From: Loripinus fragilis
Taxonomy: Eukaryota > Mollusca > Bivalvia > Lucinida > Lucinidae
Direction: 5' to 3'
Assembly (NCBI GenBank): GCA_964019695.1
Contig: OZ026514.1
Coordinates: forward strand, 104,628,345-104,692,344
DNA length: 64,000 nt
The translations under genes and the position numbers were made by a program. Shown here one piece after another: positions 6,623-45,000 of this stretch. The first letter of the stretch is position 1. Every line of letters starts with the position of its first letter. The notes under the pieces were generated by a model that made no database searches, had not been told where the DNA came from, and saw only the letters and a program-made list of their open reading frames with translations.

Positions 6623-6780
6623 CCGGTGTAACGGTCAGTTTTTTCCCCAGTCAGTTTTTTCCCCGGGGAAAGAATGGGCCGGCCCATTCTTTCCCCGGGG
6701 AAAAAACTGACCGGTCAGTTTTTTCCCCCGGGGAAAGAATTGCCTAGTCAGTTTTTTCCCCACCCAGTCAGTTTTTTCCC
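6623..6780 (+). repeat. Left inverted terminal block of the satellite element
   Basis: Contains CCGGTGTAAC, several GTCAGTTTTTTCCCC copies and a near-perfect 32-bp palindrome centred on GGGCCGGCCC. The right block at about 12870-13005 is its inverted counterpart, although the motif copies are arranged slightly differently. Confidence 0.8.
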
Positions 6781-7199
6781 CCCATTTTATTTTTTCGGAA
6801 AAGGCTTGAAAATGATATATGTGTCATTGTGTAGTTAAATCAAATTAAATATCATTCTGAAATAGCTGTATTATAACTCTACCACCCTCAACACAGTACA
6901 AAAGTGCAGAGGGTGTAGAAGGATTTGATTATAAATGGTTAGCCTATTCAAAAACAAAATGAGTATGTTCTTAATTCAAAATGGTTATTTGAATGGGTTA
7001 AAGGAAAATCGACCCAGTCTTTCCCCAACCCACTATTTGGAAGAATCAATTCACTAAGATAAAATACAAAGGTTGGAACACTTTGGAGGAAGATAACCAA
7101 TAAACTTTTTGGTTTGAAAATTTGATTATCTCTTTGGAATGAGTCATTCATAAGTCTTCAGATACAGTAAAAGAATAACATTAACTGAAAGACTGAAAG

Positions 7200-10100
7200 A
7201 TAAATAGAAAGATCAGAACATTTTGGAGGGGTGAGGGGGTGGGTGGGGGGGGGGAAAGAATGGGCCGGCCCAGTCTTTCCCCACCCCACAATGTAGCAGT
7301 ACAAATAAAATGTTTGGTTTGAAAACTTGATTCTCTATTTGGAATCGGTCATTCATAAGTGTTAAGATACAGTGAAAGAGTAACATAAACCAAAAGACTA
7401 CAATTGTAACTGATCAATAGAAAGATCTGAAGATTTTGGAGGGGGGAAAGAATGGGCCGGCCCAGTCCTTCCCCACCCAACAATGTAGAAGTACCAATAA
7501 TCTTGTTGGATTGAAAACTTGAATCTCACTTTGGTATAGGTCTTTCATAAATGTTAAAATAGAGTGAAAGAGTAACATAAACCGAAAGACGAAACGATCA
7601 ATAGAAGATCGAAAGATTAAGGAGGGGGGGAAAGAATGGGCCGGCCCAGTCTTTCCCCACCCTACAATTACGAATAAACTTGTTGGTTTGAATACTTGAA
7701 TCTCTGCTTGGTATAAGTCAAGAGAGTTCAGATACAGCAAAAGAATAACATAATCCAAAAGTCTAGAGGATAAATAGAAAGATCCCAACATTTTGGAGGG
7801 GGGAAAGAATGGGCCGGCCCAGTCTTTCCCCACCCCACAATGTAGCAGTACAAATAAAATGTTTGGTTTGAAAACTTGAATCTCTATTTGGAATCAGTCA
7901 TTCATAAGTGTTAAGATACAGTGAAAGAGTAACATAAACCAAAAAACTACAATTGTAACTGATCAATAGAAAGATCTGAAGATTTTGGAGGGGGGAAAGA
8001 ATGGGGCGGCCCAGTCTTTCCCCACCCAACAATGTAGAAGTACCAATAATCTTGTTGGATTGAAAACTTGATTCTCACTTTGGTATAGGTCTTTCATAAA
8101 TGTTAAAATAGAGTTTAAGAGTAACATAAACCGAAAGACGAAACGATCAATAGAAGATCAAAAGATTAAGGAGGGGGGAAAGAATGGGCCGGCCCAGTCT
8201 TTCCCCACCCTACAATTACGAATAAACTTGTTGGTTTGAATACTTGATTCTCTGCTTGGTATAAGTCAAGAGAGTTCAGATACAGCAAAAGAATAACATA
8301 ATCCAAAAGTCTAGAGGATAAATAGAAAGATCCCAACATTTTGGAGGGGGGAAAGAATGGGCCGGCCCAGTTTTTCCCCACCCCACAATGTAGAAGTACC
8401 AATTAACTTGTTGATTTAAAAACTTGATCTCTCTTTGGAATAGGTCATTCAAAATTGTTCAGATACAGTCAAAGAGTAACATAAACCGAAAGACTAAACA
8501 ATAAATTGAAAGATCCAAGCATTATGGAGGGGGGGGGGGAAGAATGGGCCGGCCCAGTCTTTCCCCACCCAACAATGTAGAAGTACCAATAATCTTGTTG
8601 GATTGAAAACTTGATTCTCACTTTGGTATAGGTCTTTCATAAATGTTAAAATAGAGTGAAAGAGTATCATAACCGAAAGACGAAAAGATCAATAGAAGAT
8701 TGAAAGATTAAGGAGGGGGGAAAGAATGGGCCTGCCCAGTCTTTCCGAGTCCTACAATTACGAATAAACTTGTTGGTTTGAAAACTTGATTCTCTGCTTG
8801 GTATAAGTCAAGAGAGTTCAGATACAGCAAAAGAATTACATAATCCAAAAGTCTAGAGGATAAATAGAAAGATCCCAACATTTTGTAGGGGGGAAAGAAT
8901 GGGCCAGCCCAGTTTTTCCCCACCCCACAATGTAGAAGTACCAATTAACTTGTTGGTTAAAAAACTTGATCTCTCTTTGGAATAAGTCATTCAAAATTGT
9001 TCAGATACAGTCAAAGAGTAACATAAACCGAAAGACTAAACAATAAATTGAAAGATCCAAGCATTATGGAGGGGGGGAAAGAATGGGCCGGCCCAGTCTT
9101 TCCCCACCCAACAATGTAGAAGTACCAATAATCTTGTTGGATTGAAAACTTGATTCTCACTTTGGTATAGGTCTTTCATAAATGTTAAAATAGAGTGAAA
9201 GAGTAACATAAACCGAAAGACGAAACGATCAATAGAAGATCGAAAGATTAAGGAGAGGGGAAAGAATGGGCTTGCCCAGTCTTTCCCAACCCTACAATTA
9301 CGAATAAACTTGTTGGTTTGAAAATTGATTCTCTGCTTGGTATAAGTCAAGAGAGTTCAGATACAGCAAAAGAATTACATAATCCAAAAGTCTAGAGGAT
9401 AAATAGAAAGATCCCAACATTTTGGAGGGGGGAAAGAATGGGCCGGCCCAGTTTTTCCCCACCCCACAATGTAGAAGTACCAATTAACTTGTTGATTTAA
9501 AAACTTGATCTCTCTTTGGAATAGGTCATTCAAAATTGTTCAGATACAGTCAAAGAGTAACATAAACCGAAAGACTAAACAATAAATTGAAAGATCCAAG
9601 CATTATGGATGGGGGGGGGGGAAGAATGGGCCGGCCCAGTCTTTCCCCACCCAACAATGTAGAAGTACCAATAATCTTGTTGGATTGAAAACTTGATTCT
9701 CACTTTGGTATTGTTCTTTCATAAATGTTAAGATAGAGTGAAACAGTAACATAAACCGAAAGACGAAACGATCAATAGAAGATCAAAAGATGAAGGAGGG
9801 GGGAAAGAATGGGCCGGCCCAGTCTTTCCCCACCCTACAATTCGGATAAACTTGTTGGTTTAAAAACTTGATTCTCTGCTTGGTATAAGTCAAGAGAGTT
9901 CAGATACAGCAAAAGAATAACATAATCCAAAAGTCTTGAGGATAAATAGAAAGATCCCAACATTTTGGAGGGGGAAAGAATGGGCCGGCCCGGTTTTTCC
10001 GCACCCCACAATGTAGAAGTACCAATTAACTTGTTGGTTTAAAAACTTGATCTCTCTTTGGAATAGGTCATTCAAAATTGTTCAGATACAGTCAAAGAGT

Positions 10101-10480
10101 AACATAAACCGAAAGACTAAACAATGAATTGAAAGATCCTAGCATTATGGAGGGGGGGGGGGAAAGAATGGGCCGGCCCAGTCTTTCCCCACCCAACAAT
10201 GTAGAAGTACCAACAATCTTGTTGGATTGAAAACTTGATTCTCACTTTGGTATAGGTCTTTCATAAATATTAAAATAGAGTGAAAGAGTAACATAAACCG
10301 AAAGACGAAACGATCAATATAAGATCAAAAGATTAGGGGGGAAAGAATGGGCTGGCCTAGTCTTTCCCCAACCCAAAAATTACGAATAAACTTGTTGGTT
10401 TGAAAACTTGATTCTCTGCTTGGTATAAGTCAAGACAACATTTTGGAGGGGGGAAAGAATGGGCCGGCCCAGTCTTACCC
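7200..10480 (+). repeat. Satellite array A with three-unit higher-order period
   Basis: Units of about 170-196 bp, each marked by a G-run followed by GAAAGAATGGGCCGGCCCAG and TCTTTCCCCACCC. Core spacings cycle at roughly 188, 182 and 171 bp, a period near 540 bp repeated about five times. That is why similar chance open frames recur about 540 bp apart on the minus strand. The spacer contains AGTACCAATAATCTTGTTGG or related sequence. No coding function. Confidence 0.9.
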
Positions 10481-12640
10481 CACCCCACTATTGAGAAGGA
10501 ACATGCAGTTAGCTAAATGCTTTCTTAACGTGAATTTCTCCTTAGGACAAGACAATCATGAGTGTTCTGATACAGTGCAATGGTAGGTTAAACCTTAAGA
10601 CTGAGAGATAAATAGAAAGGTTAGAAAATAATAGAGGGGGGAAAGAATGGGCCGGCCCAGTCTTTCCCCACCCCCTATTTAGAAGAATCATTTGGCTGAA
10701 TGCTTGTAACTTGAATTTTTCCTTGAGATATGTCAATCATGAGTGTTCAGATTCAGTGTAAGAGTAGTTTAAACCAAGGACTGATAGATAAATTGAAAGG
10801 TTAGAACCCAATGGAGGGGGGGGGGAAAGAATGGGCCGGCCCAGTCTTTCCCCACCCCACTATTGAGAAGGAACATTCAGTTAGCTAAATGCTTTCTTAA
10901 TTTGAATTTCTCCTTCGGACAAGACAACCATGAGTGTTCAGATACAGTGCAAGAGTAGGTTAAACCTAAAGACTGAGAGATAAATAGAAAGGTTAGAAAA
11001 TAATAGAGGGAGGAAAGAATGGGCCGGCCCAGTCTTTCCCCACCCCCTTTTTAGAAGAATCATTTGGCTGAATGCGTGTAACTTGAATTTTTCCTTGAGA
11101 TATGTCAATCATGAGTGATCAGATTCAGTGTAAGAGTAGTTTAAACCAAGGACTGACAGATAAATTGAAAGGTTAGAACCCAATGGAGGGGGGGAAAGAA
11201 TGGGCCGGCCCAGTCTTTCCCCACCCCACTATTGAGAAGGAACATGCAGTTAGCTAAATGCTTTCTTAACGTGAATTTCTCCTTAGGACAAGACAATCAT
11301 GAGTGTTCAGATACAGTGCAAGAATCATGAGTGTTCAGATACAGTGCAAGAGTAGGTTAAACCTTAAGACTGAGAGATAAATAGAAAGGTTAGAAAATAA
11401 TAGAGGGGGGAAAGAATGGGCCGGCCCAGTCTTTCCCCACCCCCTATTTAGAAGAATCATTTGGCTGAATGCTTGTAACTTGAATTTTTCCTTGAGATAT
11501 GTCAATAATGAGTAATCAGATTCAGTGTAAGAGTAGTTTAAACCAAGGACTGACAGATAAATTGAAAGGTTAGAACCTAATGGAGGGGGGAAAAGAATGG
11601 GCCGACCGAGTCTTTTCCCACCCCACTATTGAGAAGGAACATGCAGTTAGCTAAATGCTTTCTTAACGTGAATTTCTCCTCTGGACAAGACAATCATGAG
11701 TGTTCAGATACAGTGCAAGAATCATGAGTGTTCAGATACAGTGCAAGAGTAGGTTAAACCTTAAGACTGAGAGATAATTAGAAAGGTTAGAAAATAATAG
11801 AGGGGGGAAAGAATGGGCCGGCCCAGTCTTTCCCCACCCCCTATTTAGAAGAATCATTTGGCTGAATGCTTGTAACTTGAATTTTTCCTTGAGATATGTC
11901 AATCATGAGTGTTCAGATTCAGTGTAAGAGTAGTTTAAACCAAGGACTGATAGATAAATTGAAAGGTTAGAACCTAATGGAGGGGGCGGGGGGAAAGAAT
12001 GGGCTGGCCCAGTCTTTCCCCACCCCACTATTGAGAAGGAACATGCAGTTAGCTAAATGCTTTCTTAATTTGTATTTCTCCTTAGGACAAGACAATCATG
12101 AGTGTTCAGATACAGTGCAAGAGTAGGTTAAACCTTAAGACTGAGAGATAAATAGAAAGGTTTGAAAATAGTAGAGGGGGGAAAGAATGGGCCGGCCCAG
12201 TCTTTCCCCACCCCTATTTAGAAGAATCATTTGGCTGAATGCTTGAAATTTGAATTTCTCCTTGAGATATGTCAATCATGAGTGTTCAGTTTCAGTGTAA
12301 GAGTAGTTTAAACCAAGGACTGACAGATAAATTGAAAGGTTAGAACCCAATGGAGGGGGGGGGGGGAAAGAATGGGCCGGCCCAGTCTTTCCCCACCCCA
12401 CTATTGAGAAGGAACATGCAGTTAGCTAAATGCTTTCTTAACTTGAATTTCTCCTTAGGACAAGACAATCATGAGTGTTCAGATACAGTGCAAGAATCAT
12501 GAGTGTTCAGATACAGTGCAAGAGTAGGTTAAACCTAAAGACTGAGAGATAAATAGAAAGGTTAGAAAATAATAGAGTGGGGAAAGAATGGGCCGGCCCA
12601 GTCTTTCCCCACCCCCTATATAGAAGAACCAGCTAGCTAA
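10480..12640 (+). repeat. Satellite array B with two-unit period
   Basis: The palindromic core is the same as in array A, but spacers alternate between a TTGAGAAGGAACATGCAG type and a TTTAGAAGAATCATTTGG type, giving a dimer of about 370-400 bp. Some dimers (near 11320, 11715 and 12485) are about 28 bp longer because AATCATGAGTGTTCAGATAC.. is duplicated inside the unit. Confidence 0.9.
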
Positions 12641-12869
12641 ACAGGTTTTAAAGTCGAAGATCTCTTTGACATGTCATTCGAAAGTATTTCGATACAGTGA
12701 AAGAGTACAATAAACCAAAAGACTTATAGTAAAAGTGAATGGTCTGAACCCCTAAAAATCAGAACCAAACAGCAATAAGTATGAGTACTTTTGAGTCCTA
12801 TCGCTATTTTAATGGCGGCTTTTTAAATTTATGCTAAGAAATAATAATTCCATTATGATTTTTGAAATT

Positions 12870-13005
12870 ATTAGGGGGGGGAAAAAACTGACTGGGTGGG
12901 GAAAGAATGGGCCGGCCTATTTTTTCCCCGGGGAAAGAATGGGCCGGCCCATTCTTTCCCCGGGGAAAAAACTGACTGGGGGGAAATTCCGGCCTGTTAC
13001 ACCGG
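12870..13005 (-). repeat. Right inverted terminal block of the satellite element
   Basis: Read on the minus strand it starts CCGGTGTAAC and continues into CCCAGTCAGTTTTTTCCCC and the GGGCCGGCCC palindrome, mirroring 6623-6780. Confidence 0.8.
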
Positions 13006-14619: not shown

Positions 14620-17600
14620 GTATGGTAGTTTGGGTCCTTGTGTTGTTTGAGATACGTTGTACAGTAAAACCTGCCTTAAGTGGTCACTCAAAAAGAAGAC
14701 CAAAAATTGGTTTTCAAGACCGATTATTGCTTAATGCAGGTCAAAAGTTTTGCAGAATGCTCCAAGGGGAGCATTCTGCAATACTTTTGACCTTCATTAA
14801 GCTACAATTTGTCATTAAGATTTTTGTTTTGTCTATTTTTGAGTGGCCGCTTAAGACAGGTTTTACTGTATTAGCAATTTGATGCAATCACTACCCCTGT
14901 AGGAAACATATAGGCTTTTACTTATACATTGTATTCATATACAAATACCATTGTAAAGATTGAGCTTGTATTGTCCGATTTTATTAACCTGACACAGGTG
15001 CATAATTTCACGGTTAGTGCACAGGATATTTTACCTTCCGTCGACTTTCGGTATTTACCGTAAGTTTTACAAGAATTTTGCAAGTTCTAATGCAGATAAC
15101 GAAACGTTTTGCAATGTACTACTGACTAGTCAAGTGGTTTTGGTACAGAGTTTACAACCAAAAGGTCCTGAGTTCGAGTCCACGTAAATTCTCTTTTTTT
15201 ATGTATTCTACCTCTTTATTTGATTCGTTTAACTTCATTATTATAGATGTATCACGACCTCTGAGTAATGTCTTTTGGATCATTATATTCAAAAGGTTGA
15301 TGCGTAACACATACACTGAGCCAGTCTGTCTGGAACAGCTACTTGCTTCAAAATTGAATAGTATACGTAATAAAAGCCTGAAACCCCTTTTTCTAGATCC
15401 GTATTTTCAATTTTGTAAATATAGTCTCGCGTTTATCTATACTTGAATTTGTTATTGTTATTTTTGTAGGACCCTCACCAAGAACGTTAACCGTACGCTC
15501 GATATGTGAAGCTGAATCTCTGTGCTTTTGACATATTTTTAAAGAAATCGCAGATATTCAAAATAAATCTGCTTTGCCTTAGTGCAAAGACTTGCTGCAT
15601 ACTTTTCTTCAGACGTTTTCCCACTTAACTTAAGTTCAAACAACTTGTATAGTGAATACATTTTAACCATATGTTTTGGCTATAATATGGAACAATATTT
15701 TCCAATAATCTCTGAAGATGTTCGGACAGATTGGCTCATTTTACGCGTTACGCATCAACCTTTTGAAATAGAATGATCCAAAATTTCATTCCTCAGAGGT
15801 CGTGGTACATCTATAATAAATGAAATTAAACAAATCGATTAAAGTAAAAAAAAACCACACACACGTGGACTCGAACTCACGACCTTTGGGTTGTAAACTC
15901 TGTATCATAACCACTTGACTAGTCAGTAGGACGGTACAAAACGTTTCATTATCTGCATAAGTTATTGCAAAATTCCTGTAAAATTTACGGTAAATACCGA
16001 AAGTCGACGGAAGGTAAAAATATCTTGTGCACTAACCGTGAAATTATGCACCTGTGTCAGGTTAATAAAATCGGACAATATATAATATAGCCTTGCATAC
16101 AATCACCTTTAAATGCATCTTTTCTTTCCCTTGAAGCTTTGGTTATGATATCATGTATATATATATATTATATTTCATTTATGTAAGATCATTTTTACCC
16201 TACATCTGGCTTAGCACAATCTATCAATCATATCACAGCTTGCTTTCAAGTTCTGCCTGGATTTGCAAATAATAATAGATCCCTCATAGGGATCTTTGCT
16301 TGATGATGCTTGCTATTACCACACTAATGTCCAGGGTGTGAATAAAAGCCTGGACCAAAGCCCATGACTCGGGACCAAATTTTGAGAGCATAATTGTAGG
16401 AAGTATTTACAATGAATGTATCAAGCTGAAATCAAGTATTGTTGAATTCTATAATAACTTCATAATCATAATATCATAATCGGATTTTTGATTAACGTGC
16501 AGGTGCACATCATCCACATCAGTGGGCCCCTTTCCAGGTAACTGGCTAGCTGCACACATAGCAGATCTCACACCTGATCTCCAGGTGCTCCTTTCTTGAG
16601 GGTCAACTGTCGTGAGCTTCCACTCACGGCAGTCTCTCTCCGTCAGTTTCTTCCATGTAAGCTTGGGCCTCCCTGCCCTCCGCCTGCCATCAATCTGTAT
16701 ATCACATGCTGTTCTGATTGCACCACTAGAACGCTCCACATGCCCAAACCAGCGAAGCCTTCTCTCTCTCAAAATGAGGTCGAGGTCCTCAAGCTCAAGC
16801 TTTGCCAGTAATTCGCTTGACCTTACCGTGGCCACGTCCTCTGGCTTGATACTGCAGATCTGTCTGATCATGGGCCTATCATTGCGCTGCAAGCGCTGCA
16901 GGTTTGTCTTGGTCACTGGCCAAGTTTCACTGACATGGAGCATGACGCTCTGCACGCAAGAGCTGTATACATGGCCACGTGTCTTGTAAGAGAGGTGGCG
17001 GGATTTGAGAACTGGTAGTAGCTCCCTGAACTTTTTCTAGGCTGTTTTCACACGAGTAGTGACAGCTATTTCACAGCCTCCACCAGCAGAAAGCATGTCA
17101 TCCAGGTAGCAGAAGGAAGCTACCACCTCCAGCGTATCAGGTCCGACCTGGACTTCATTCTGTGTTCTGCCATGCACCGTGCACACCTATAATCAGGATT
17201 TGGTGTCAGTCGTTGCAGCCCACTGCATTTCTTATGCACCCAAAGTTTGCAGCCATTGCAGTAGATGCTGTTGTTGCCTACTCCTGTACGACAGACAGCG
17301 CATGGGTATTCGCCTGAACTCTGCAAGAGGTCCAGGCCTGTACCACAGATCATGACCTTTGTCTTTCCTGCATTTACCCTCAACCCCTTCTTCTCCATGG
17401 CTTCTTTCCATATCAAGAGCTTCCTGACACATTCCTCTAGAGAGTCAGCAATGATGACAAGATCATCCGCATATAGGACCTCCCAGGGAAGACCAGCCCG
17501 AAACTCATGTGACAAGGCCTCCAGCACAATGATGAAGAGCAAGGGACTGAGTACGGATCCCTGGTAGACTCTGACCTTCACCTCAAACTTTTTGCTGAAA

Positions 17601-20600
17601 CCCTTGCCAACACGGACCCGACTTCGTGCATTAGCGTTCATTCCCTGGACTAATCGCAAAATCCATTCCTCAACACCTAGCTTTCTCAGGGCCCACCAGA
17701 TAACCTTCCAACTGACACAATCAAATGCTTTCTCTAGGTCCACAAAGGCCATATAAAGCCTATTGTTCGCTGCTAGGTATTTCTCCTGCAGCTGTCGGAC
17801 CACAAAGATTGCATCTGTAGTGCCTCTTCCTGGGACAAAGCCAAACTGGGAGTGGTCAATAGACACCACCTGTCTTATGAGACCATCAACAATCCTCTCT
17901 AGGATCTTCATGGCCTGCTCAGTCAGCTTGAGGCCTCAATAGTTGCCTCTGTCCAAAGCATCACCCTTGCCCTTGCAAAGGCAGACAATATAACTTTGCT
18001 CCCAGTCAGTTGGGACCTTGCCATCACGGATAATCGCAGTAGCAAGATCACGGGTCATGGTGGCACCTGTATCACCTGCTGCCTTGATCATCTCCACCAC
18101 TACGCCTGAAGGACCTCCAGCTTTGCCCGACTTCATCTTTGAGATGGCCTTTTTCACCATATCAAAAGTGATTGGGATATGCGGGCCTTCTAGCGACGGT
18201 TAGTAGGACAGATGATCAGGGTCCCAGTCAAATTCAACGTTGAGAAGCCTTTCGTAATGTTCAGCCCACGCATTCTGCTTTGCCTCCTCGCTCATTGACA
18301 TTTCCCCAGCGCCATTCTTCACTGGCTTGTCCCCTACAACATAAACATTCTCTTTCCTCATCTGGTTGGCGAGGTGGAAGATATCAGAGGACTTGTGGTC
18401 AATGCCATCATAGACCACCTTGTCTGCTTCGTGGCGTGCATGGTGCACCACACGTCTGGAGATGCACTTGGCAGTGTTATATGATGCTTGTGTGCATTTG
18501 CCAGCCTTCCATGGTTTGAAAGCTTGGGGCTTGGCTGTGATGGCATCATCCACTTCCTTATTCCACCACCAAGTTTCATGTCGCCATTGGTGGGGCTTTG
18601 TTGTGCACCTCCTCTGTTTTCAGCAAACCTGTCTTTAGTTTCTCCCAGATTTCCTCAGTAGTAGTAGCCCCTTCAGTTTCCACAGCGGGCACATGTGCAT
18701 TGAAGACTTCCTGAAATCGGCTACACGTTTGAGGATCTCTGAGCTTCCACACTTTTGGACGTGGGGTGAATTTGCGCTTGACTTGGCGGCATATCAATCA
18801 TCATGTCGCCACAAGGAGCTGATGCTGCAGAGCAACCTCCTCTCTAGGAATCATCTTCACAGCCATAACAAGTTTGCACAGGCTCTTACGATATAACGCA
18901 AAGTCTATCTGGGTTGCTGTATTACCGGACCTGTATGTGATGAGGTGACTGTCACGTTTCTTGAAACACGTGTTACCGAGGAACAGGTCATATGCTAGTG
19001 CATATTCCAGGATCCTCTCACCCTCACTATCAGGGTCTGCCTTGCCATACCCATAGCCTCCATGAACTTCTTTGTAACCTAAGCCTGTACTGCTTACATG
19101 ACCATTCCAATCACCACATGGGATGAGGAATTCTGATGCTGGGATCATTGCAGTCACAGCCCTAAGTTGGTCGTAGAATAGATCCTTTACAGAATCACTG
19201 AGACCACTCTGTGGGGCATAGACAGACAGAAAACAAAGCACTCGCTGACCGACTATGGTCTTCACCAGGATGATCCGGTCGGAGACTTGCTTGACCTCAA
19301 ATACCTTCTCTATCCACTTCTCTGCCACAAACACTCCAACACAAGCAGTACCTTTGCTGTTTCCAGACCAGAACAGTTTGTATCTTGAGTCTCTGCCCTT
19401 AATTATACGGCAATGACCACCCCAGTATCTGGTCTCTTGGACACAACAAAGGTCTACTTTTCTACGAGATAGTGTTTCAACCACCTCGCAGACCCTACCT
19501 TTCAGAGTGTTCACATTAAGAGTGCCCACCCTGAAATTTCTCAGATGCTTGCTGGATTTGCCGCAATGGCCCGACCCTGCCCCCACACCTGAGAGGGGGC
19601 CAAGCCGGAGACGCCACTGACAGTAATCTTGTTTCTGCCAGCATTGTCTAGCGTGACTACATTTGTTGATTCTGCCATGTTTGTTTTGGAACTAAGGTTT
19701 TTCTGGGATAGCCTGTCTTAGCTGACATCCCAACTCAGATCTATGACGGCCTCTTAGATTCCGCCGTTCCCGCACTTTGGCAGTGTGCCTTGCCGTTGTT
19801 CTTATACAGAGTCGTCCGCCAAGCCACAATAGCTAGGATGCCAAACCATTGGTGTGTAGATGGCTGCCATCTAGCTCTGCCACCCAGGCTGTGGCATTCT
19901 CATTAACCCAGAGGTGGGGGATGCAGTTTAACGTCATACCCAGGACTTAACTTATATTACTTATTCACAGGCTTGGATAAACAAAAACTTTTCAGCGTAA
20001 AATTGAAAATATTATCTTACCCATCAATTTTAACATGTTTTGGGTGCTCAAAAGAACTGTCTCATTGAGACGGTTCTTTTGAGTACCCGTGTGAGAAATA
20101 GGAATTTTAAATTTTCATTACATGATGTAAACTTTGACAATTTTCTTTGCTAGTGGAGATTTTGTTGTGTGCTGATAGCTTTGCAAACAGATTGGACCCA
20201 GATCAGGCCTTTATTGAAGATAGTTAATTTTGAATAAAATTCAGCAGACGACAATAAAAGCATGAAAAATTACCCAGCATGTGTCATTGTACGTAAATTA
20301 TACCAACTAAACAGCTGGCCCTATAATTAATTTTACACAAATGTTACCAAAATTTATTGCTGCAGCAAAAAAACTATAATCATCATGCATCACTTAACAA
20401 GATGGCTACTATATTTATAATGTTCCCTGTGTTGTTTAGTACCAAAGTTGATCAAACAGTGAAGCCCTGCAAACAAGAATACCACTGTTCATTCTGGATA
20501 CTGGTAAACAGGTACTTTGGCAAACATGTAGACTCCTATGAAATGCCACATTAGGTGGCATAATATCAGGGTCCGCACTATTTGCTTAAGATAAAAATGA

Positions 20601-23600
20601 TTTTTGTAATTTCATAATTTATAGCCCCTTTAAATACAAGATGGACTATCCCATAACTATTGTATCAATATTTTTTTGGAAAAAGCATCAGAATGAAAAG
20701 GGTTAAAACTACTTGTCTGATTTTGAAATATTTAAGTTCACTAATTTACTACCCTTGCTTAAACAAATTGTATGGTCCTGTCACTTAATCCTTTGGATAC
20801 TAGTGGCTCCTAAATGGGAACTTTGGCAAACAGTGAAGACCTAGATGAAATGCCTCAATTTGCAGCATTTCATCGGAGTATTCACTGTTTTTAAGACAAA
20901 ATTGCTCTCAGATTGAAGAAAAACAATTTTATTTAAGAAATAGATTCGTGCGCACAGTGATTTGTTGCTTAATATATCACTGGCTGGAGGTCAGTCGTTA
21001 AAGTGAATAAATCATGAGCGCGAAGCGCGAATGATTTATCCACTTATGACTGACCGACAGACAGTGATATATTAAGCAACAAATCACTGTCAGTGCGAAT
21101 TTATTTCGATTCTAACACACAAAAAGATTAAAAATATGAACGAATCCTTCATAGTCTATGACAATTCCGCCATCTTAAACAGACTGTCACAAATTCCCGC
21201 AACTCTTGTTCAGACTGAAACGCATATTTTTACGTACGTTTTCAAGTGAACTTCAGTTCACTTGAACTCAAACGTAGTTGTGAAAACGACGTTACGCCGT
21301 CTATTGTGATAAATGACGTCATGAAAATCAAGCTGGCGACTGAATGACATCACGTTGGTCTGTGCCAAGTCCGTGCAGTGATAAATCAGCCAATAAATCA
21401 CTGAGTTTAACCATTGGCTATATAGGCGAGGTGTGTTAGAATTGGAAATTAAAACCTGTGACCAAACGATATATACAATGGACCATCTCACATATCGAAC
21501 CAAAAGGAAGAAACCATTAGTGCATAAAGTTTGTTTGATTTGATGCTTTACATCCCAGTCAACAATTTTTCAGTCATGTCAGGACAATATCCTGTCTTCC
21601 TGGGTTGAACCAGTACAAAGCAACAAATAAAGTGTCTTGCTCAAGGACACAACACAGTGACTCCGCCGGCGACGAGTCTTGAACAAGCAACCCTTTGATC
21701 ACCAGTCTAGCCCTCTAACAATTGAGCCACTCTGCTACTTTGTGCATATTTTAGGGTTAAGGGACTGTACAGGTCTTAAACATATTTTTGTTTTGTCTAG
21801 GTGGAGTATTACATAGAAGCGACAGATGCTGATAATCATGCCGTCAGAGAGGCTGCTTGTGCCTGTATAGCTGAATTAGGGGCAAAGGTAAGTAACTGTT
21901 AGTTTCTGTTCAAACTATACCCTTGGAAACACATAGAAGCAACTGATGCTGATAATCATGCCGTCAGAGAGGCTGCTTGTGCCTGTATAGCTGAATTAGG
22001 GGCAAAGGTAAGTAACTTGCCGTCTCTATTGAAATAGAACAACACTTGTTATTGTGCCTGTATAGCTGAACTAGGGGCAAAGTCGAGTAACTTTCAGTCT
22101 CTATTGAAATAGAACAGCACTTGATAAAAATGAATAAACCATATTTACCCTAAATATTTATATATCTTAGCTTCTTACCATAAATTATTTTCAAATTTTG
22201 TGTAAAGGGAAGAGATGGAATATCAAATAGTGTAAACCTTGATCAGGCTGCTCCTTGATGAACCAACATGTGAAGGCATTTTAACTTTTTCAAGCATAAT
22301 AAATGTCATGCTCAGTTCAGTTGAGCATGAGAAAAAGTTCTTAGGACCAAGATGATGTGTTATTCCAGATTAGTATAAATGTTTTTGATGAAAAACTTAG
22401 ACTTGCGCTTGTTAACCTTTTTGCACACAGAGTGGCCAAAACTCTCCATAGAGTTATGGCCACTCTGAGTGCAAAATGGTTAACCTAAAGGTATGGTGAT
22501 TTAAAGCTTGCATTGTTATTAACAGGTGGATAAGGCAGTCATTCACAGCTATATTCCTAAACTACTGGAAGCCTTGTTGATATGTTTCAACGATGATAGT
22601 TGGCCCGTCAGAGATGGTAAGTTTGCATTTCTTTATCTTTCCATAGGTCTTTCTTTATCTTTCCATAGGTATTTCTCTATCTTTAAATAGGTATTTCTTT
22701 ATCTTTCCATAGGTATTTTTTTATCTTTCCATAGGTCTTCGTATATTCAGGCCTTTAAGTGTGCGTAACGAAACAATAATTTTCTTATTTCTCAACCAAA
22801 ACATATGTTGTGGGTACTCAAAAGAACCATCTCAATGAGACGGTTCTTTTTAGCACCTAAAACATATGTTAAAACTGATGGGTAAGAAAATATTTACAAT
22901 TTTATGCTAAAAAAATTGTTTATCTAAACCAGTAATATTGATGAAAATTTTATAGGTCTGGCTACTTTTTCTTTGGGTATATAGAAATCTGCTTTCAACA
23001 TAAGTGGAGTCTGTGTTCAGCAAAAGATACAAGTTGGCATGTGCATCCTGAAAGAATTTTTTGACAAAATTAACTTTTAAAACAATTCAGCAGACAACAA
23101 AAAAAGCCCGAATAATTACGGAGCATGCATATAGTAACATAGAATTATAGATCTTTCCTTTTCTTCCAGCTGCATGTGTAGCTTGTGGCAACTTTGTGAA
23201 GTGTTTTCCAGAGGAGTCTCGGTAAGTACAAGTTTTGTGGTTGACCAAACTAAATACTATTGAAACTCACAGTTGTTGATATCTTAATTTGACCATTAAT
23301 TGTGTCTCAATGAGAGAAAACCTGTCTTCGGGGTTTGCGAACAACATAGGCGGGGGATACCGACAAAACGATGACAGACAAAACATTGAATGGACTTAAG
23401 GTTGATATGACAAAAACACGACATGACAAATAATCTAAGAAAATATTCGACAAACAGGGACATGCCTAATTAATGCAGCCATATATGTGGGCTTGTCCCG
23501 AACACAAAGTCTTAAGAAATTTGTAGATGTTGGGAGGTGCCTCGCCCACTACACTTTTGAATCGCCTATGCCACGCTATGTCATTGACTGCTGTTTATTT

Positions 23601-26600
23601 TTTTAAAAAAGCATGTAAGAGAAAACGAAGACACAACACGTCGTTAATAAGTCGCGTCTATAAATTATTGCATCAATCAATTATTGCGTCTGTAATTAGT
23701 TGTGTCGATGTTTTGTCTGTCGATTAACTGTCATAGACCCCATAGGCGCAGACCAGCCTGCACATTCCCACAGACTGATCAGTGCCTTTGTTATTCGCTT
23801 ATCGGAAAGTATCATATCCAGCCTTGCTACGAGGGAAATTTCTATTTTCTAGCTAGTCTCAGTAGCTGGGCAGGCTGGTTTGAATCTCACTTAGCAGGAA
23901 ACCCTGAAGACAGGTTTTTGAGCATCACAGCCAGATTGGAAGCAGTGATGGTTCAAAGAGAAAGGACTGTTTTTGGTCCAAATGCATTTTTTATGAAAAA
24001 ACAACAACAACAACTAACAAACACAAGAAATGGGCTTTTCTGTGTTGCCCACCCCGTTTCATTTTGTTTTAAATTAGCAATATGTTAATTAATGATCTAT
24101 CAGACATTAATTTGATATTATTAGTTTGAGATGATGTCTAAAACTAGCGTAATTATATATTGAATTGTGGTAACTGACCCATAAAATAATTAGAGAATGT
24201 AAAGTGATTGGTTTGTGTTCTCACATTTTAAGTACAAGCCATTTATCTTCATCACCTTGCATACATAAAAGGGTTATGTATTTGGACTTAACGTTGCTTT
24301 CAACAATTTTCATTCATATTATTATGGTTATATCATTACACTGTTCCTGGACAGGCTACTCATATCCCTTTGTATACTAATGAATTATCCCATCTAGTTT
24401 GATACAATGAGCCTGGGGTAACCAGGTCACAGGTGTAACATGTATGTTGTTTATCTATTTTGTTTACTTAGTTTCTGCTGACCCAGATATTGGAGACATT
24501 GATGGTAAATAAGTTGTTGTAAACAAAGTATTTATTTGGTTATAAGATTTTTCTAGAATGATGACTAATCATCCAGAACTTACCGGAAAAGACCAGAACT
24601 TACTAGAATTTTCTTTTCCATGCAAATAGAAACTTTGAGTAGGTTCTGGAATTCAGTAGAAGTTTGTTGAATTTTCCAGAATGAATAAATATAGCATATG
24701 ATATAATAGTCTTTCTTGACCGTTCTAGAACTTTCTTAAAGGGTATATATAAGAGTAAATTTTTCATAAGGGCATCTTTGGAATAATTTCACCTTTTAAA
24801 AGTCTAAACCTTTTGTACTGGAATTCTATATTGGAATACTTAGTGCTTAACTTATTCATTCTGGATTACTTTGGATTATTCAGTTTTGGATTCAGACTTC
24901 ATGATCATTTGGATTTATCTTCAAAATCTGGGATCAGAAACTGCTGAAAGACTTGTGTTAATAGATATTCTGAGGGACAGTTTGGAATACAAGGTATTGT
25001 AAATTAGACTTTCTTTGATAGTATAACTATTTTCCATTGTTTACTGTAAATGATAATTTTGTTTTTAATAAATTTTGTTAAATTTTAAAAGTGCTTTTTG
25101 CTGACTTTCCAAATAGCTAAATTTTGGTTTCCTGAATTCTTTTCTAGTTACGCCTGGCACGTAACAGAAATTGGGGGCTCGTCCGGGATTGAAATTTCTT
25201 CTGCACCAAATTAGTTTGAAATTTAAAATTATCTTTACTGTTTGCTGTTTAACTAGCTGAAGCCAGCAGAAAGCAAATATGTCATTCAAACTTAGTGATT
25301 TTACTGAGTCACCTTCTCAGGAGCTGTTAGACTTGGCAAAAAAGTCTGATCTTTTGGACATTGCTGACCATTATGGCCTACCCAATGTCAAAAAGACTAT
25401 GCTGAAACATGAAATTAAGAATATTCTCATTCAGTTCTTTGTGGACGAAGAAATATTTGATTCCTCAGCTATATCTCAGATTCTGGTTACCCAGACTGAT
25501 TTGCAGTTGAGAGAATTAGAAATTAAAAGGCAAGTTGAGATGGAAAAAATAAGGTTAGAACATGAGAACAGAATAAGGGTAGAAAATGCAGAGTGTGAAG
25601 AGAGATTAAGGCGTGAGAAAGAAGAGATAGAGGATAGAATAAGGCTAGAAACTTTAGAACGAGAAGATAGGTTGATGAGAGAAAAATTAGAACAAGAGAA
25701 AATAAGATTAGAAATGGAAGAACGAGAGAAGGAAAAACAAAGAGAAATGGAAAGAGAAAAATTAGAACATGACAAATTAAGGCTAGAAATTGAAGAAAAA
25801 GAAAGAGAAAGACAAGAACGCATTGAAATTGAAAAAGAAAAATTACAATTTGAGTTAAAGATGAAAGAGCTTGAGTTAGAAGGAAAATCTAAATCAAAAC
25901 CTTTGCCTTTAGACTTTGGCAAATCTTTTGATGTGACAAAACACATCCGACTTGTTCCTCCATTTCAAGAAAAAGAAGTTGACAAATATTTTTTACATTT
26001 TGAGAAGGTAGCTGAAAACCTGAAATGGCCAAGAGAGCACTGGACCTTACTTTTACAGAGCGTTGTAATAGGCAAAGCTCGAGAAATTTACACTCAGCTT
26101 TCACTAGAACAAAGCTCAGATTATGACAAAGTAAAAGAACTTATTCTTAAGGCTTATGAGTTGGTCCCTGAAGCTTACAGGCAGAAATTTAGAGATTGTA
26201 GAAAAGAACCTAACCAGACTCATGTGGAATTTGCTAGAACAAAAGAACAATTATTTGATAGGTGGTGCTCTTCAAAGAAAGTAGGCTCTGATCATGAAAA
26301 ACTAAGACAGCTCATGCTTGTTGAGGAATTCAAATGGTGCATAAATTCTGATGTCAGGGCTTTCTTAAATGAAAAAGAAGTTGAAAATTTGGATGTAGCA
26401 GCTAGACTTGCTGATGATTATTCTTTGACTCATAAAACTTCTTTCGTTAACAAGCCATTTCCTAGGAAACCATTCAACCCTCAATTAAAATTTACACCTC
26501 AATCAAGACCATTTTCCCCTCAGTCAAAACCATATTCCCCTCAGTCAGGTCCAAAATCTAACCCCAGTAATCCATCCGATAATTCCAGCCAGTCATTTAC

Positions 26601-29600
26601 CCCAAAACCTAGATTTTCTGGTGAAAACAAAGGTCAAAGTCCATTATCCCAGCCAATTTGCAATTATTGTAAACAATCTGGTCATATCATATCTGAATGT
26701 ATAGCTTTAAAAAGAAAGAGAGAAAAAGAAAGACAGGAGAGTCCTAAACCCACAGGTCTCACCTATTTAAGGCTAAAACCTCAGTCTTCTGTTCAGGATG
26801 AGAATCCTATTTTGGCCAAAACATCTGAGACTGATACCGTTATGGAGATTTATGAACCATTCTTATCAGATGGTTCCGTGTCACTAAATAGTGACTTTGC
26901 CCAGTCTACCCCTATTAAAATCTTACGAGATACTGGTGCTTCTCAATCCCTTATCTTGGCAGATACCCTGCCTTTTTCTGAGAAGACTTCTTCTGGGACA
27001 AGTGTCCTTATCCAGGGTGTAGAGTGTGGATTTATTAATGTACCGCTCCATAACATTTATTTGTCCTCAGACTTAGTTACTGGTCTTGTGGCTGTAGGTA
27101 TTAGACCTTCTTTACCTTTTAAAGGAGTTCACTTGCTTTTAGGCAATGATTTGGCTGGAGATAAGGTTGTGGTAGACCCACTTTTGACCAGCACACCTTG
27201 TGTTGATCAACCACCTGATCCCATTGAGCAGGAAATTCCTGACCTTTACCCTTCTTGTGCCGTCACTAGGGCAATGGCGAAGAAAGCCAATCAGAATTAT
27301 GTGATGCAAGATATTAATTTAGCTGACACTTTGATAGGTCAGTCCTTTAATGATGAGATTTCAAATTCTCTTTCCCCCAGCCAGTCTGACATTCAGACTG
27401 ACTTTGACACTTCAAGGTCAAACCTTGACCTTTCACCTTCAATTTCAACTGACCAAGGTCATGACCAGCTGTCAAGGTCACAGCTTTGTAAGGAACAACA
27501 TAGTGATCCTGAGATATCACCTTTATTTGATAGAGCGTTAGATGAAAATGAAATGTCACAAGTCCCTGTATGTTTTTATGTGCAAAATGACATTTTGATG
27601 AGAAAATGGCGTCCTCCTGATGTCTCAGCAGATGATGAGTGGACTGTTAACCACCAGATTGTGGTCCCTAGGGCTTATCGTCCTGAAATTTTAAATTTGG
27701 CTCATGAAACTCCCATGTCAGGCCATTTAGGTGTAAATAAGACCTATCACAAAATTCTTAATCATTTCTTTTGGCCAGGATTAAAATCAGATGTTTCTCA
27801 GCACTGCAAATCCTGCCACACTTGTCAAATGGTAGGAAAACCCAATCAGACCATTCCAAAAGCTTCTTTACAGCCCATTCCTGCCTTTGATGAACCTTTT
27901 AGCAGAATCATTATTGACTGTGTAGGTCCCCTACCCAAAACAAAGTCAGGTTGTCAATATCTTTTGACTATTATGTGTGCTTCAACACGCTTCCCTGAAG
28001 CCATTCCACTCAGAAATATCAAGACTAAGACAATTGTTAAAGCACTTGTGAAGTTTTTCACATTTGTGGGACTTCCAAGGTCTGTACAATCTGATCAAGG
28101 TTCAAATTTTATGTCAGGAATTTTTCAACAAGTCATGCATGAACTTGGTATCAAACAATACAAGTCATCGGCTTATCATCCTGAAAGTCAGGGTGCCTTA
28201 GAAAGATTTCATCAAACTTTGAAAAACATGATCAGATCTTACTGCTTTGACACGGAAAAGGATTGGGATGAGGGCATACATTTACTTTTATTTGCTGTAA
28301 GGGAATCTGTACAAGAGTCTCTTGGGTTCAGCCCATTTGAACTGGTATTTGGGCATACTGTGCGCGGACCCTTGAAACTTCTGAAAGAAAAATTTCTCTC
28401 AGATGATGACAGTTCTTTGAACTTACTTCAGTATGTGTCTGATTTCAAAAATAGACTATCAAAAGCCTGTGAAGCTGCTCGGTCCAATCTCAAATCAGCT
28501 CAAACCAAAATGAAACTACATTATGATGAAAATGCTCAGGATAGAAATTTTGAACCAGGAGACAAGGTACTTGCTCTTTTGCCCATTCCTGGTAAGCCAT
28601 TGCAAGCAAGATATTATGGTCCTTATACTGTTGACAAAAAGTTAAGTGATGTTAATTACACTGTCAACACTCCTGGGAGGCGTAAACAAAAACAGTTATG
28701 TCATATTAACATGCTTAAAAAGTATATTGATAGGGATAGTTCTGTTATTTCATCAGTGAATCTAGTTAATTCTGTCCCTCTTGAACAAAATCAAATGGAC
28801 TCTGAAGATATGAACTTTGTGCAATCTGATCCGGCGTCGTCCAAACTCAAGAACTCTGATATTTTAAAGGATCTTGACCAGAAATTGTCACATCTTAGTT
28901 CAGACAAGAGACTTGAACTGAAGCAGTTAATTCTTGAATATGAGCACTTATTTCCAGACATTCCATCCAAAACTGACAAAATTTATCATGATGTTGAACT
29001 TATTGATGGTTCAAAACCTGTGAAACAACATCCATACAGAATGAACCCTGTAAAACAACAAATTCTCAGAGATGAAGTTCAATATTTGCTGGATAATGGC
29101 TTTATAGAACCTAGTCAAAGTGAATGGAGTTCTCCTTGTATTCTTGTACCAAAACCTGATGGGACATTTCGTATGTGTACAGACTATCGTAAAGTAAATT
29201 CTGTCACCAAAACGGACACATTTCCAATTCCTCGACTCGATGACTGCATAGATAACATTGGTCAAGCCAAATACGTTACAAAATTCGATCTGCTTAAAGG
29301 ATTTTGGCAAATACCTCTGACAAAGAGAGCAAAGGAGATCTCAGCATTTGTTACTCGAGACGGATTGTATCAGTATAAAGTTATGCCTTTTGGAATGAAG
29401 AACTCTCCAGCAACATTTCAACGCTTGGTTAACAGCTTGATATTTAATCTGGTTGGCTGTAAAGCCTATATCGACGACGCTATCATCTTCAGCGAAGAAT
29501 GGGAACAACACTTACAAACTATCAGAAATTTCTTCGACAGACTTAGTGAAGCTAAACTAACAGTTAACTTAACAAAGAGTGAATTTTGCCATGCAAATTT

Positions 29601-32600
29601 GACATTTTTAGGTCATATGGTGGGACAAGGTCTGGTAAAACCTGTAGAAGCCAAAGTTGAGGCTATCTCAGATTTTCCCGTACCTTCTGGCAAAAGACAA
29701 CTGATGCGCTTTCTCGGTATGGCTGGATATTACAGGAAATTCTGTAATAACTTCTCTGTCATAGCAGAGCCCTTGACAAACTTACTTGGCAAAAGGGTCA
29801 AGTTTATTTGGACTGATAATTGTCAGAAGTCTTTTGAAAAGCTTAAAGCCATACTTAAAAGTGCTCCAGTTCTCTTAGCACCAAGCTTTAACAAAGAATT
29901 TAAGTTGGCCGTAGATGCCAGTGATGTTGGTGCAGGCAGTGTATTGTTACAAGAAGATGACAATGGTGTTGATCATCCTGTTTGTTACTATTCTAAAAAG
30001 TTTAACAAACATCAGAGAAATTACTCTACCATAGAAAAAGAATGCTTATCTCTCATCCTTGCTCTTCAGCACTTCGAAGTTTACCTAGCATCTTCAGTTG
30101 CACCTATTGTCATTTTCACTGATCACAATCCACTGACTTTCATTCATAAAATGAAAAACAAGAACCAGCGTTTACTCAGATGGAGTCTCATGTTGCAAGA
30201 GCACAATCTAGATATCAGACATATTAAGGGAAAAGATAATATCATCCCAGATGCGCTCTCTAGGGCTTAATTGCCACTATACTGTTGATGTGAGTTTGTG
30301 CTATTGCTCTTTATTGATCTGATGTGATTTAACATTATTGTTTGTTATATAATTGTTCATTATTGCAAAAGAAAGCTTTACTTCATAAAACTTTCTTTTC
30401 TTTGAGGAGGGGAAGTGTAACATGTATGTTGTTTATCTATTTTGTTTACTTAGTTTCTGCTGACCCAGATATTGGAGACATTGATGGTAAATAAGTTGTT
30501 GTAAACAAAGTATTTATTTGGTAATAAGATTTTTCTAGAATGATGACTAATCATCCAGAACTTACTGGAAAAGACCAGAACTTACTAGAATTTTCTTTTC
30601 CATGCAAATAGAAACTTTGAGTAGGTTCTGGAATTCAGTAGAAGTTTGTTGAACTTTCCAGAATGAATAAATATAGCATATGATATAATAGTCTTTCTTG
30701 ACCGTTCTAGAACTTTCTTAAAGGGTATATATAAGAGTAAATTTTTCATAAGGGCATCTTTGGAATAATTTCACCTTTTAAAAGTCTAAACCTTTTGTGC
30801 TGGAATTCTATATTGGAATACTTAGTGCTTAACTTATTCATTCTGGATTACTTTGGATTATTCAGTTTTGGATTCAGACTTCATGATCATTTGGATTTAT
30901 CTTCAAAATCTGGGATCAGAAACTGCTGAAAGACTTGTGTTAATAGATATTCTGAGGGACAGTTTGGAATACAAGGTATTGTAAATTAGACTTTCTTTGA
31001 TAGTATAACTATTTTCCATTGTTTACTGTAAATGATAATTTTGTTTTTAATAAATTTTGTTAAATTTTAAAAGTGCTTTTTGCTGACTTTCCAAATAGCT
31101 AAATTTTGGTTTCCTGAATTCTTTTCTAGTTACGCCTGGCACGTAACACAGGTTGGAATTTCTGAATTAAGATGTATTTCAGTCGCTGAAGATTGTTTAT
31201 TACTTAGCAAACAGTGCAGACCTTGATGAAATGCCACATTATGCAGCATTTCATCTGGGTCTTCACTGTTTGCAAATGTACCTGTTTAGGGGTTTCCAGT
31301 ATACAAAGTGTTAAGCCATTTACCAGTGCTTAGTGTATAGCTACTTTATTTAGTAAATGACAACTGCTCTTCTTGAATCATATGTTGGGAAAGAATAATC
31401 TAATTAAGAATCTGGGATAAAGAGGCTTAGGTGCACAGAACTAAGAACATAGGCCTAGATAAGCAAACGTTTTGAGCGTAAAATTGCTATTATTTTCTTA
31501 TTCATCAGTTGCAGACCATGATGAATTCACAGGTTTAGATAAAAACAAATTTTAGTGTAAAATTGTAAATATTTTCTTACCCATCAGTTTTAACATATAT
31601 GTTGTGGGTGCTCAAAAGAACCGTCTCATTGAGACGGTTCTTTTAAGTACCCACAACATATGTTTTGGCTGAGAAATTAGAAAATTATTTTTCTGTTACA
31701 CACTCTTAACTAAAGGCCGGGAAATGTTGCCTTATGCGGCATTTCGTCTGCGTCTTCACTGTTTACCAAAGTACCTGTTTACCATTATCCAGAATGAAAG
31801 GGTTAAATGTGTTCACCAGGTCATCTTTAGCTGTAATTTGCCAATTATGTATAAAGTAATTTTCCCCTATATAATTTCAGGTCCACCCTTCCAGCTTTGT
31901 ATCCATTATTTTTCAACAATCTACAAGACAATATTCCCTCTGTGAGACAGGGTGCTGCCCTAGCACTCTCTAATGTGGTTAGAGCCTATGGTCAGTATAT
32001 GACTTGTTGTAATTTTATCACATGACGTCACATCTGGAAGTGATATATGGTCATGCATTAAAATCAATAAACCACTTGTGGTTTACACTTTAACATTTTA
32101 TAATGATGTCTAGAAATACTTTGCGTACATACGAGGACTGTTCAAATATGAATGCAAGTAGCTTCATAACTTTCTTCACATATATGCAATGACAAAATGT
32201 CATACCTTTATGGAAAGAACTATTTGTTGTCTTTAAAATGGCACCAAACATAAAGAAACACTCACTTTATTTCTCGAGTTACAGATGCTTATATAAAGGC
32301 CATTCCTGTATACTGAATTTTTTCTGAAGCAAATTGCTATACATGTTTTGGTACATGTGCGGATATAGTGTCATATCTTTGTAAGTTTGAGACAAAATGG
32401 CACCAAGTTTTAGATGCAAGTTTAAGGTACATTGACAAAGTTTCTTGCAGGAAAAAGTTTATAAAATCCTGTTTCAATCTCGAGTAAACAGGCACTTTTG
32501 TGACGTCATTAATTTTATGATAAAGTCATTTTGAGATATTTACTGGTGATGCAATAATGAACATCGCTGTGTCTTTTTCTTGGCGTTTTGCTTAAAACCT

Positions 32601-42000: not shown

Positions 42001-45000
42001 AAACATTTCAGCAGACGAGAAAAGCAGAGGACTTTTGTTGCGATTGGCCCATTAAGGGTTAAAACTCTTACATTTACTGTGTATGTCTTCCACAGACCTG
42101 TGATAATGCCCTAACTGCTGCTGCAGCCAATAACTGTTTAGCAGAGCTCAGTAAATTCTTGGGGCCATCCATACTACGAGGCAGAGTGGAACAGTATAAT
42201 CCAAGGTTGGTTTACTTTCACTTCTAATTAATGCCTTATTAAGATATGAGGGAGCGCAGTGGCTCAGTGGTAGAATGCTTGACTGGAGACCCAAGGGCAG
42301 CGGGTTCGAGCCTCACTGGCATCACTGCGTTGTGGTCCTTGAGCAATACACATTTATCCTAGCTTAGTACTGGTTCAACCCAGGAAGACCTGTCCCTGTT
42401 TAACTGAAAGATTGTTGATGGGACGTAAAGAATCAAATCAAACAAACAAACAAATTATTAAAATAAGTTTAGAAACAAAAGTGGTAATAGATGTTCTTAC
42501 ACAGTGACCATTTTATAATAATGGCATAAAGTTAAGCATATTTTGAAAGTGTTGCTGATTTTTACCAGACTGTCAATTTTTGCTAAATATTTTATTGCAC
42601 ATCAAAATTTATTGTTCATCTTCTATCCAAAAGTCAGCAACATGGAACTCTTCCAAATTGAATCCTGGCTACATCATGGCAACCCGATTATTGTACCTAC
42701 TAAGGCATCTCCCACAATTAAAAAGGTGATTTTCTCCAAAATTTCAGAAATGGATTTGGAAGCGCAGTGGCTCAGTGGTATAGTGCTTGACTTGAGACCG
42801 AGGGGCTGCGGGTTCGAGCCTCACCGGCGTCACTGTGTTGTGTCCTTGAGCAAGACACATTAATCCTAGCTTAGTACTGGTTCAACCCAGATATACCCGT
42901 CCCTTTATAACTGAAAGATTGTTGATTGGACGTAAAAAATCAAATCAAACAAATCAAATCAGAAATGGTTTTGTTGATTGTCTGTCAAAGTTTACAGATA
43001 ACCATCCCTGCTAAATTACACCGGCATAACTGTATAGCTATGATGATTTCAAGTGGAAAATAGAAGGAATGAAACAGATTTCCTAGTCATTAGGATAATG
43101 ACTAGGAAATCTGTTTCATACTTTCTATTTTCCGTAAATACCACAATGTTTCTTCTAACATCTCCAAGCCATACTTTGCAACAAATAAGGGTGGTTAAAA
43201 CAATCAAATACCAAAATTATTGACTGGATTTCATTTCATTAACACATTTCATGACTAAACTTTGTACATTTTTGTCTTCAAAATGCTCCATACCAGGCCA
43301 CTGAATCTGTTAAATATTTCTGTCATAACATGGATGGAGCATTGGTCTTTAAAGTCTGAAAATCTAAACCCTATTTTATCTGTTGTTTGTTAACAGCATG
43401 GAAGTTTGGCATTTTTCCTGCTGAGAGTACCCCCAGAAAAAATGTTTGTTTGCCAAGATAATTGCCTTTTGAAATACCAATCTAAGGCTTTCCAACTCAA
43501 AATAAGATTGTTGAAGTATAAAAAGCGTTTTATGTTAGCCCATCAGATCTCATTATTTTGGTCAATGGAAGTACATATTAACTTTATGCCAATAGTATAT
43601 ATGAAACTTTCATAAATTTCATATGAGTTTGAAATGGCTGTAAGGTTTTGTTTACCATATGATGGTTTTAGCCAGGATTTTAGACTTTAACCCTTAAAGC
43701 ACTAAGAAAAAAATGTATCTGAAAATGTCGTCTGCTGAAGTCGTCTGCTGAAAATAATTGCCTAGCATTACTGACGAATTAAGTATAGAAGCAAACAGCA
43801 TGGACCCAGAACAGACTGCTCCTATAGGAGCAGTCTGATCTGGGTCCACACTGTTTGCCATAGAGGCTTCTTAAACATTTCAGCAGACGAGAAAAGCAGA
43901 CGACTTTTGTTGCGATTGGGGCAGTAAGGGTTAAAATAAGAAGACAAAGTAACAATGTCAAGGATGTTTCTGTGAGGTAGAATTGATGCCCCAAAGTGCT
44001 AATAAACAAGTGGTCATATCATTATATATAATAAGATATTAACCTCTTAAAAACAATGATGTCATATTATAAACTTTTTTCATATATTATAAAAATTAAT
44101 TGTTGCAAAATATTGGCTATAACTCAATCCTAAAATGTAACACAGATAGTAATATCTGCTTAGAGCTCTTTTTTTGGGCTTTTGTACATGGTAGATTTTT
44201 TTAGGATTAAGCATGAATTTAGGATTTTGGGGCTGACTTTTCATAGCCCCAAAGCCATGAATTGGACCTAAAATGTATTAGCTTCATTGTATTAAAATTT
44301 GATTTTCTGTCTGTCTGTAATTCAGGATGTTCTTCATAGTTACAGCTTTTACTAAAGAAGATATAATTAGGGGATCACTGTATTCAAAATTTTAATCTGT
44401 TGAGGTATATTGTCAGATAAACAGTCATAAATTTAGTTTTATAGTGACAAACAAGCGGAATTGTAAAACGTGATTTCGGAACGTATATCTGACAATATAC
44501 CTCCTCAAATGAAAATTTTGAATATGGTTATCCCATTTCTAATGCACTTCTGCAGTTTTGTCTCGAATTGAAGCATTGCAAGCTAGATGACATCCAACAA
44601 AATGTGACGTAATTAATGATGTCAGACTATTTTCGACAGTATATCACAGGATATACCGTCACCCTGTGATATACTGTCACCAATTTTTGACATTATCCAA
44701 TCAGACTTCACATTACAAAAGCAATTGTGATGGCAAATAACTGATAAGGATTCCTGAAGTACCAAAAGAGCATTGCTCTGGTTAATTAATTCCTTTTGAG
44801 CTCTGGGAAGGTTAAATTGTAGAGTGCTTGACTCGAGACAGAGGGGCCGTGGGTTCCAGCCTCACCGGCGTCACTGCGTTGTGGTCCTTGAGCAGGACAC
44901 ATTTATCCTAGCTTAGTACTGGTTCAACCCAGGAAGACCCGTCCCTGTTTAACTGAAAGATTGTTGATGGGACGTAAAGAATCAAATTAAACAAACAAAC

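Follow-up and report, generated by a model that had tools for sequence, protein, structure and literature searches.

A complete Ty3/Gypsy-class retrotransposon of Loripinus fragilis, probably Gmr1-like, with integrase between protease and reverse transcriptase

The stretch of DNA analysed here (the window) comprises 64,000 nucleotides of contig OZ026514.1 from the Loripinus fragilis assembly GCA_964019695.1; all coordinates are window positions. It very probably carries a complete long terminal repeat (LTR) retrotransposon of the Ty3/Gypsy class in which the integrase lies between the protease and the reverse transcriptase (RT). Judging from its sequence, this is likely a recent insertion of a Gmr1-like element that would spread by ordinary LTR retrotransposition. 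The whole element spans positions 24434-31148 (6715 bp) and is broader than the open reading frame (ORF, 25279-30270) reported in the initial annotation, to which the present analysis adds the SCAN domain, the LTRs and the target-site duplication (TSD).

The features of an LTR retrotransposon are all found in their expected places: paired TG..CA LTRs, a TSD, a primer-site-like sequence and a polypurine tract. The LTRs are 733 bp long (5' LTR, 24434-25166, TGTAAC...GTAACA; 3' LTR, 30416-31148), differ at 4 of these 733 positions and are bounded by the duplication CAGG (24430-24433 and 31149-31152). A putative primer binding site, TGGGGGCTCGTCCGGGAT, lies five bases past the 5' LTR (25172-25189). 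It is predicted to fit tRNA-Pro; ARAGORN called no tRNA in the window. The polypurine tract GAGGAGGGGAAG (30404-30415) adjoins the 3' LTR. A single, unbroken Gag-Pol frame of 1663 amino acids (aa) occupies 25279-30270 on the forward strand, to which the LTRs, the primer site and the polypurine tract are also assigned. The earlier description of a complete copy is upheld, and the small LTR divergence is in line with its being young.

The Gag-Pol frame encodes, in order, a SCAN domain, a zinc knuckle, the protease, the integrase (HHCC, D-D35-E and GPY), the RT and the RNase H. The initial annotation had read these enzyme motifs in this order along the single frame, and both a re-check of the motifs and the independent order of the Pfam matches agree with it (the protein was scanned in three pieces at E 0.01 and residue numbers were converted back). 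The N-terminal part of Gag is charged, rich in Glu, Lys and Arg, and includes a 75-bp tandem repeat (25678-25819), where a coiled coil is suspected by eye. The SCAN domain (residues 297-386; 26167-26436; Pfam E 4.1e-11) is likely the C-terminal part of the capsid; a PDB search with the capsid region returned no sequence match. The CCHC zinc knuckle of the nucleocapsid (residues 461-474; 26659-26700) and the aspartic protease region (residues 535-645; 26881-27213; borders chosen by hand) were called by motif, the latter from DTGAS at residue 551 (26929-26943), and neither zf-CCHC nor a protease model gave a Pfam match at E 0.01. The integrase follows. Its zinc-binding part and catalytic core (residues 791-1000; 27649-28278) are matched by Integrase_H2C2 (about residues 796-852, 3.1e-21) and rve (about 872-968, 3e-12), with 35 residues, counted on the sequence, between the DQG that starts at 939 and Glu 975. 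Its C-terminal GPY module, with GPY at 1114, is matched by Integrase_p58_C (about residues 1114-1148; 28618-28722; 1.2e-11). The RT (residues 1198-1470; 28870-29688) is matched by RVT_1 (about 1290-1447, 1.4e-35) and has YIDD at 1397 (29467-29478). The RNase H region (residues 1480-1662; 29716-30264), matched by RT_RNaseH (about 1537-1641, 7.8e-36) and carrying VDASD at 1545 and DALSR at 1658, closes the protein. The stop codon is separated from the polypurine tract by 133 bp only, so that no integrase is left at the usual 3' place.

Both the integrase and the RT are of the gypsy type. Ty3 is the top named solved match for each: the integrase matches 7q5b (5.4e-36), and the RT and RNase H match 4ol8, which we take to be Ty3 (1.1e-90), and 7q5b (4e-90). 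However, the two matches occur in the reverse order in the Gag-Pol of 7q5b (RT 583-1009, integrase 1088-1448). RVT_2, presumably the model of copia-type RTs, is not among the Pfam matches of the window protein, which are to RVT_1 and gypsy-type integrase models instead. The earlier reading of gypsy-like enzymes in a copia-like order is therefore upheld. Ty1/copia elements have the order protease, integrase, RT and RNase H. They share the upstream integrase with the window element (PMC6238403), and domain order is all that would favour a true Ty1/copia element that merely resembles gypsy. The enzyme families differ, however, since RVT_1, H2C2 and a GPY-type integrase end are found here. Membership of copia was rejected as exceedingly improbable on these gypsy-type models and on the Ty3 matches of both halves.

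The element is repeated in the genome (1.987 Gb in 685 contigs). A 1-kb internal piece led to 436 candidate places, of which 40 were scored, the window included; these show 97-100% identity to the piece and correspond to at least 39 other copies. The 20 most similar of the 39 others scored (L009-L028) were examined, and integrase precedes RT in all of them. Nesting of elements generally occurs in such genomes, and the integrase of one element might have been joined before the RT of another by nesting or by the assembly, the latter being the objection foreseen in the initial annotation. This has hardly any probability here: the 1663-aa frame is unbroken and is enclosed by a single pair of LTRs whose flanking TSDs agree, and the same order is found in 111 of the 120 best-listed database proteins. 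An assembly join was rejected because all 20 copies examined elsewhere in the genome keep the order.

These copies also bear on age and constraint. Where both LTRs could be compared (19 copies), their divergence ranges from 0 to 0.011, and 19 of the 21 copies inspected have a TSD of 4-5 bp; both counts take in the window. The two copies without a TSD call (L015 and L020) have an LTR that is partial or cut off by the fetched stretch. Four copies (L011, L014, L016 and L019) retain at least 1640 uninterrupted codons across integrase and RT, and 8 of the 20 have no one open frame covering both. L026 and L027 both lie on contig C2, separated by about 1 Mb, and their identity is 99.9% across 8832 bp, flanks included; since the flanks are shared at this level, they represent a recently duplicated region or uncollapsed haplotypes and may be a single insertion. 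Differences between the window ORF and the 20 copies number 626, 587 and 2323 at codon positions 1, 2 and 3. Relative to random expectation, the ratio of nonsynonymous to synonymous differences, computed from codons with a single change, is 0.06 in the integrase, 0.09 in the protease, 0.12 in the RT/RNase H, 0.16 in gag and 0.20 in the spacer; the underlying counts are not independent because the copies share history. The long intact frame and the mainly synonymous differences would also be expected of a host gene domesticated from such an element. The flanking LTRs, the TSD and the near-identical genomic matches (at least 39) speak against this, and a domesticated gene, which has a negligible chance, was rejected on the LTRs and the many copies. 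The element was likely active recently and is likely a recent insertion. The window supplies an intact, many-copy, integrase-first gypsy element with near-identical LTRs in an animal genome.

Two forms of the primer site coexist. It is readable in 20 copies, window included (L022 is unreadable). The form TGGGGGCTCGTCCGGGAT occurs in 7 of the 20, two of them with one change, while in the other 13 position nine is followed by three additional bases, and some of these sites differ by another single change. Both forms are found in copies with near-identical LTRs. If all 18 bases of the site were rebuilt from tRNA-Pro at every round, the insert should vanish. A short primer contact or a different tRNA might explain its persistence. 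Such matched copies, differing at the primer site, offer a natural comparison of how much of the tRNA primer is needed.

Relatives were collected from protein databases with the RT/RNase H region (7975 candidates sharing the most words were scored, 4379 proteins were found and the best 120 listed). Counting the window, 112 of 121 proteins are integrase-first. Four are RT-first and more distant, three from Lolium and one from Cordylochernes; they are long, with more than one RT or integrase, and their order therefore rests on the best-scoring stretch. No integrase was detected in the remaining five. Three proteins (P0075, P0116 and P0118) keep SCAN, protease, GPY tail and RT/RNase H, and the zinc-binding and catalytic parts of the integrase are undetected in them (in P0116 also by Pfam); they may correspond to a deletion, a non-autonomous form or a gap in the gene model. 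Named relatives among the best 120, with species labels as filed in the public records, include the mollusc Pinctada imbricata, the cnidarian Paramuricea clavata, the sponge Dysidea avara, the hemichordate Glandiceps talaboti and the echinoderms Amphiura filiformis, Apostichopus japonicus and Holothuria leucospilota. Added searches with the Cordylochernes RT-first element and with the window integrase enlarged the set to 298 proteins with the window counted in. Of these, 141 are integrase-first and 69 RT-first, while 88 were left unscored (a domain missing or multiple), counts that mirror the choice of queries and the best-listed matches rather than natural abundance. SCAN is present in 116 of the 141 integrase-first proteins versus none of the 69 RT-first ones, a contrast that is partly built in, as the capsid of the window element itself seeded the SCAN profile. 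The Pfam SCAN model agrees with this profile in the window protein and in each of three relatives scanned. Some close relatives carry bacterial labels (P0010 and P0014, filed as Thiodiazotropha, and P0016, as Campylobacter). They are likely animal or host DNA contaminating bacterial assemblies; when the integrase piece was used to scan contigs of prokaryote genomes, 34 pattern matches arose, none of which passed tblastn, and no relative was confirmed there.

The Gmr1-like (GmrI) clade is said to have been founded in a 2002 paper by Goodwin and Poulter. The window element is probably a member, as its domain order, SCAN capsid and single Gag-Pol frame match the group as described, in agreement with the fit to GmrI proposed earlier. 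The group is defined by its upstream integrase (PMC6238403, PMC8220671), and gypsy-type enzymes are common to both. SCAN is reported in more than half of the Gmr elements and, among frog LTR elements, only there (PMC4131045). With 1663 aa in 6715 bp, the window element is somewhat larger than its Gmr counterparts in tetraodontiform fish, which have a single Gag-Pol of 1506-1634 aa in 6058-6465 bp, and its LTRs are longer (733 bp versus 337-518 bp; PMC11117352). SCAN is also shared with the vertebrate SCAN zinc-finger proteins, whose domain reportedly descends from the Gag of a Gmr1-like element (PMC3424704); these are proteins of the host that bind DNA, whereas here the domain belongs to the element's own Gag. 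The suggestion that such a copy would extend the group to protostomes is out of date: four crustacean elements were presented in 2013 as the first Gmr1-like elements in protostomes (PMC3587641), and the annelid family LGF3 was assigned to Gmr1 in 2021 (PMC8220671). Gmr1 is also listed among five gypsy clades found in several phyla in a study whose own annelid set yielded none (PMC8556966). A mollusc survey describes 21 gypsy clades and, in its accessible part, mentions Gmr1 once, as background (PMC6238403); its unnamed clades could include integrase-first elements. No report of a Gmr1 element in a mollusc was found in the available portions of PMC6238403, PMC8220671, PMC8556966, PMC3587641, PMC2774666, PMC3424704, PMC4131045 and PMC11117352, Repbase and most subscription papers lying outside the search. 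The element is a well-preserved further example of an already described group and not a new type.

The life cycle would be an ordinary one. The mRNA would be translated into one polyprotein, assembling via the SCAN-type capsid, and the protease would release the integrase and the RT/RNase H from this precursor. Because both would be freed, their order in the precursor would matter little. A tRNA, likely tRNA-Pro, would then serve the RT as primer. Insertion of the cDNA by the integrase would produce a duplication of 4-5 bp.

Trees were built from the 210 proteins in which RT and integrase each occur once, of which 167 passed length checks (104 integrase-first and 63 RT-first). Quick trees used 86 representatives (34 integrase-first and 52 RT-first) and careful trees a hand-chosen subset of 41 (12 integrase-first, with 25 nearer and 4 farther RT-first rows); both sets consist of rows other than copia and GmrI references. 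In the quick trees the integrase-first rows form one side of a branch (support 90 for RT/RNase H and 97 for integrase), and the 33 rows other than P0232 do so at 100 and 99. In the careful trees they form one clade (99/99 for RT/RNase H; 98/85 for integrase, where the bootstrap had not settled). A single change of order suffices in all four trees. This suggests that the integrase-first order marks one lineage and not repeated shuffling. Most likely, the integrase and its GPY tail left the end of pol as a block, once, in the ancestor of the clade and came to lie between protease and RT.

Several points weigh against this interpretation and the identity given above. Kinship to GmrI was judged from published descriptions; the case for activity is drawn from sequence features, and the primer tRNA is a predicted one. 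The long-branched P0232 is the most divergent integrase-first row, with 40% RT identity to the window, and the best RT-first protein reaches 42%. Placing it among the RT-first rows in the RT tree gives a likelihood 29 log units above the quick free tree with 86 rows (p-AU, approximately unbiased test, 0.758) and 15 lower with 41 rows, where it is not rejected (p-AU 0.184). Its RT placement is thus not firm, and in this protein the order may have originated separately or the RT may have been exchanged. In addition, many inner forks are weak, so that neither tree reveals which lineage is sister to the clade. A broader alternative draws on the same two observations: the order may have arisen more than once, or integrase and RT may come from different gypsy lineages through recombination. 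We consider this unlikely, given that one change of order is enough throughout and that P0232 bears the SCAN capsid seen in none of the 69 RT-first proteins. A single lineage with one integrase move is still preferred. It is a tentative and rather doubtful extension that this move predates the split of sponges, cnidarians and bilaterians and has been kept since, and that the three-base insert is tolerated, implying that no more than about nine tRNA bases are needed and copied per round.

Other features were observed in the window. Near-palindromes at 22779-22891 and 31592-31685 flank the element, are 81% alike over 94 bp and resemble a family of miniature inverted-repeat transposable elements. 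A 32-bp palindrome, GGGGAAAGAATGGGCCGGCCCATTCTTTCCCC, occurs in 29 copies (at most 3 mismatches) at 6665-12961, 25 of them within a tandem array (7249-12495) whose units measure about 183-397 bp. On the reverse strand, 17120-19586 contains an RT fragment followed by a PHD finger, as well as an endonuclease-like fragment below the Pfam cut-off; these are probable remnants of long interspersed nuclear elements. Two Rfam tRNA matches on the forward strand (42761-42832, 29.8 bits; 61396-61454, 40.9 bits; cut-off 29), uncalled by ARAGORN, are possibly tRNA-derived short interspersed nuclear elements. Finally, a 127-aa ORF on the reverse strand (59955-60335) carries a SAP domain (E 3.9e-13).

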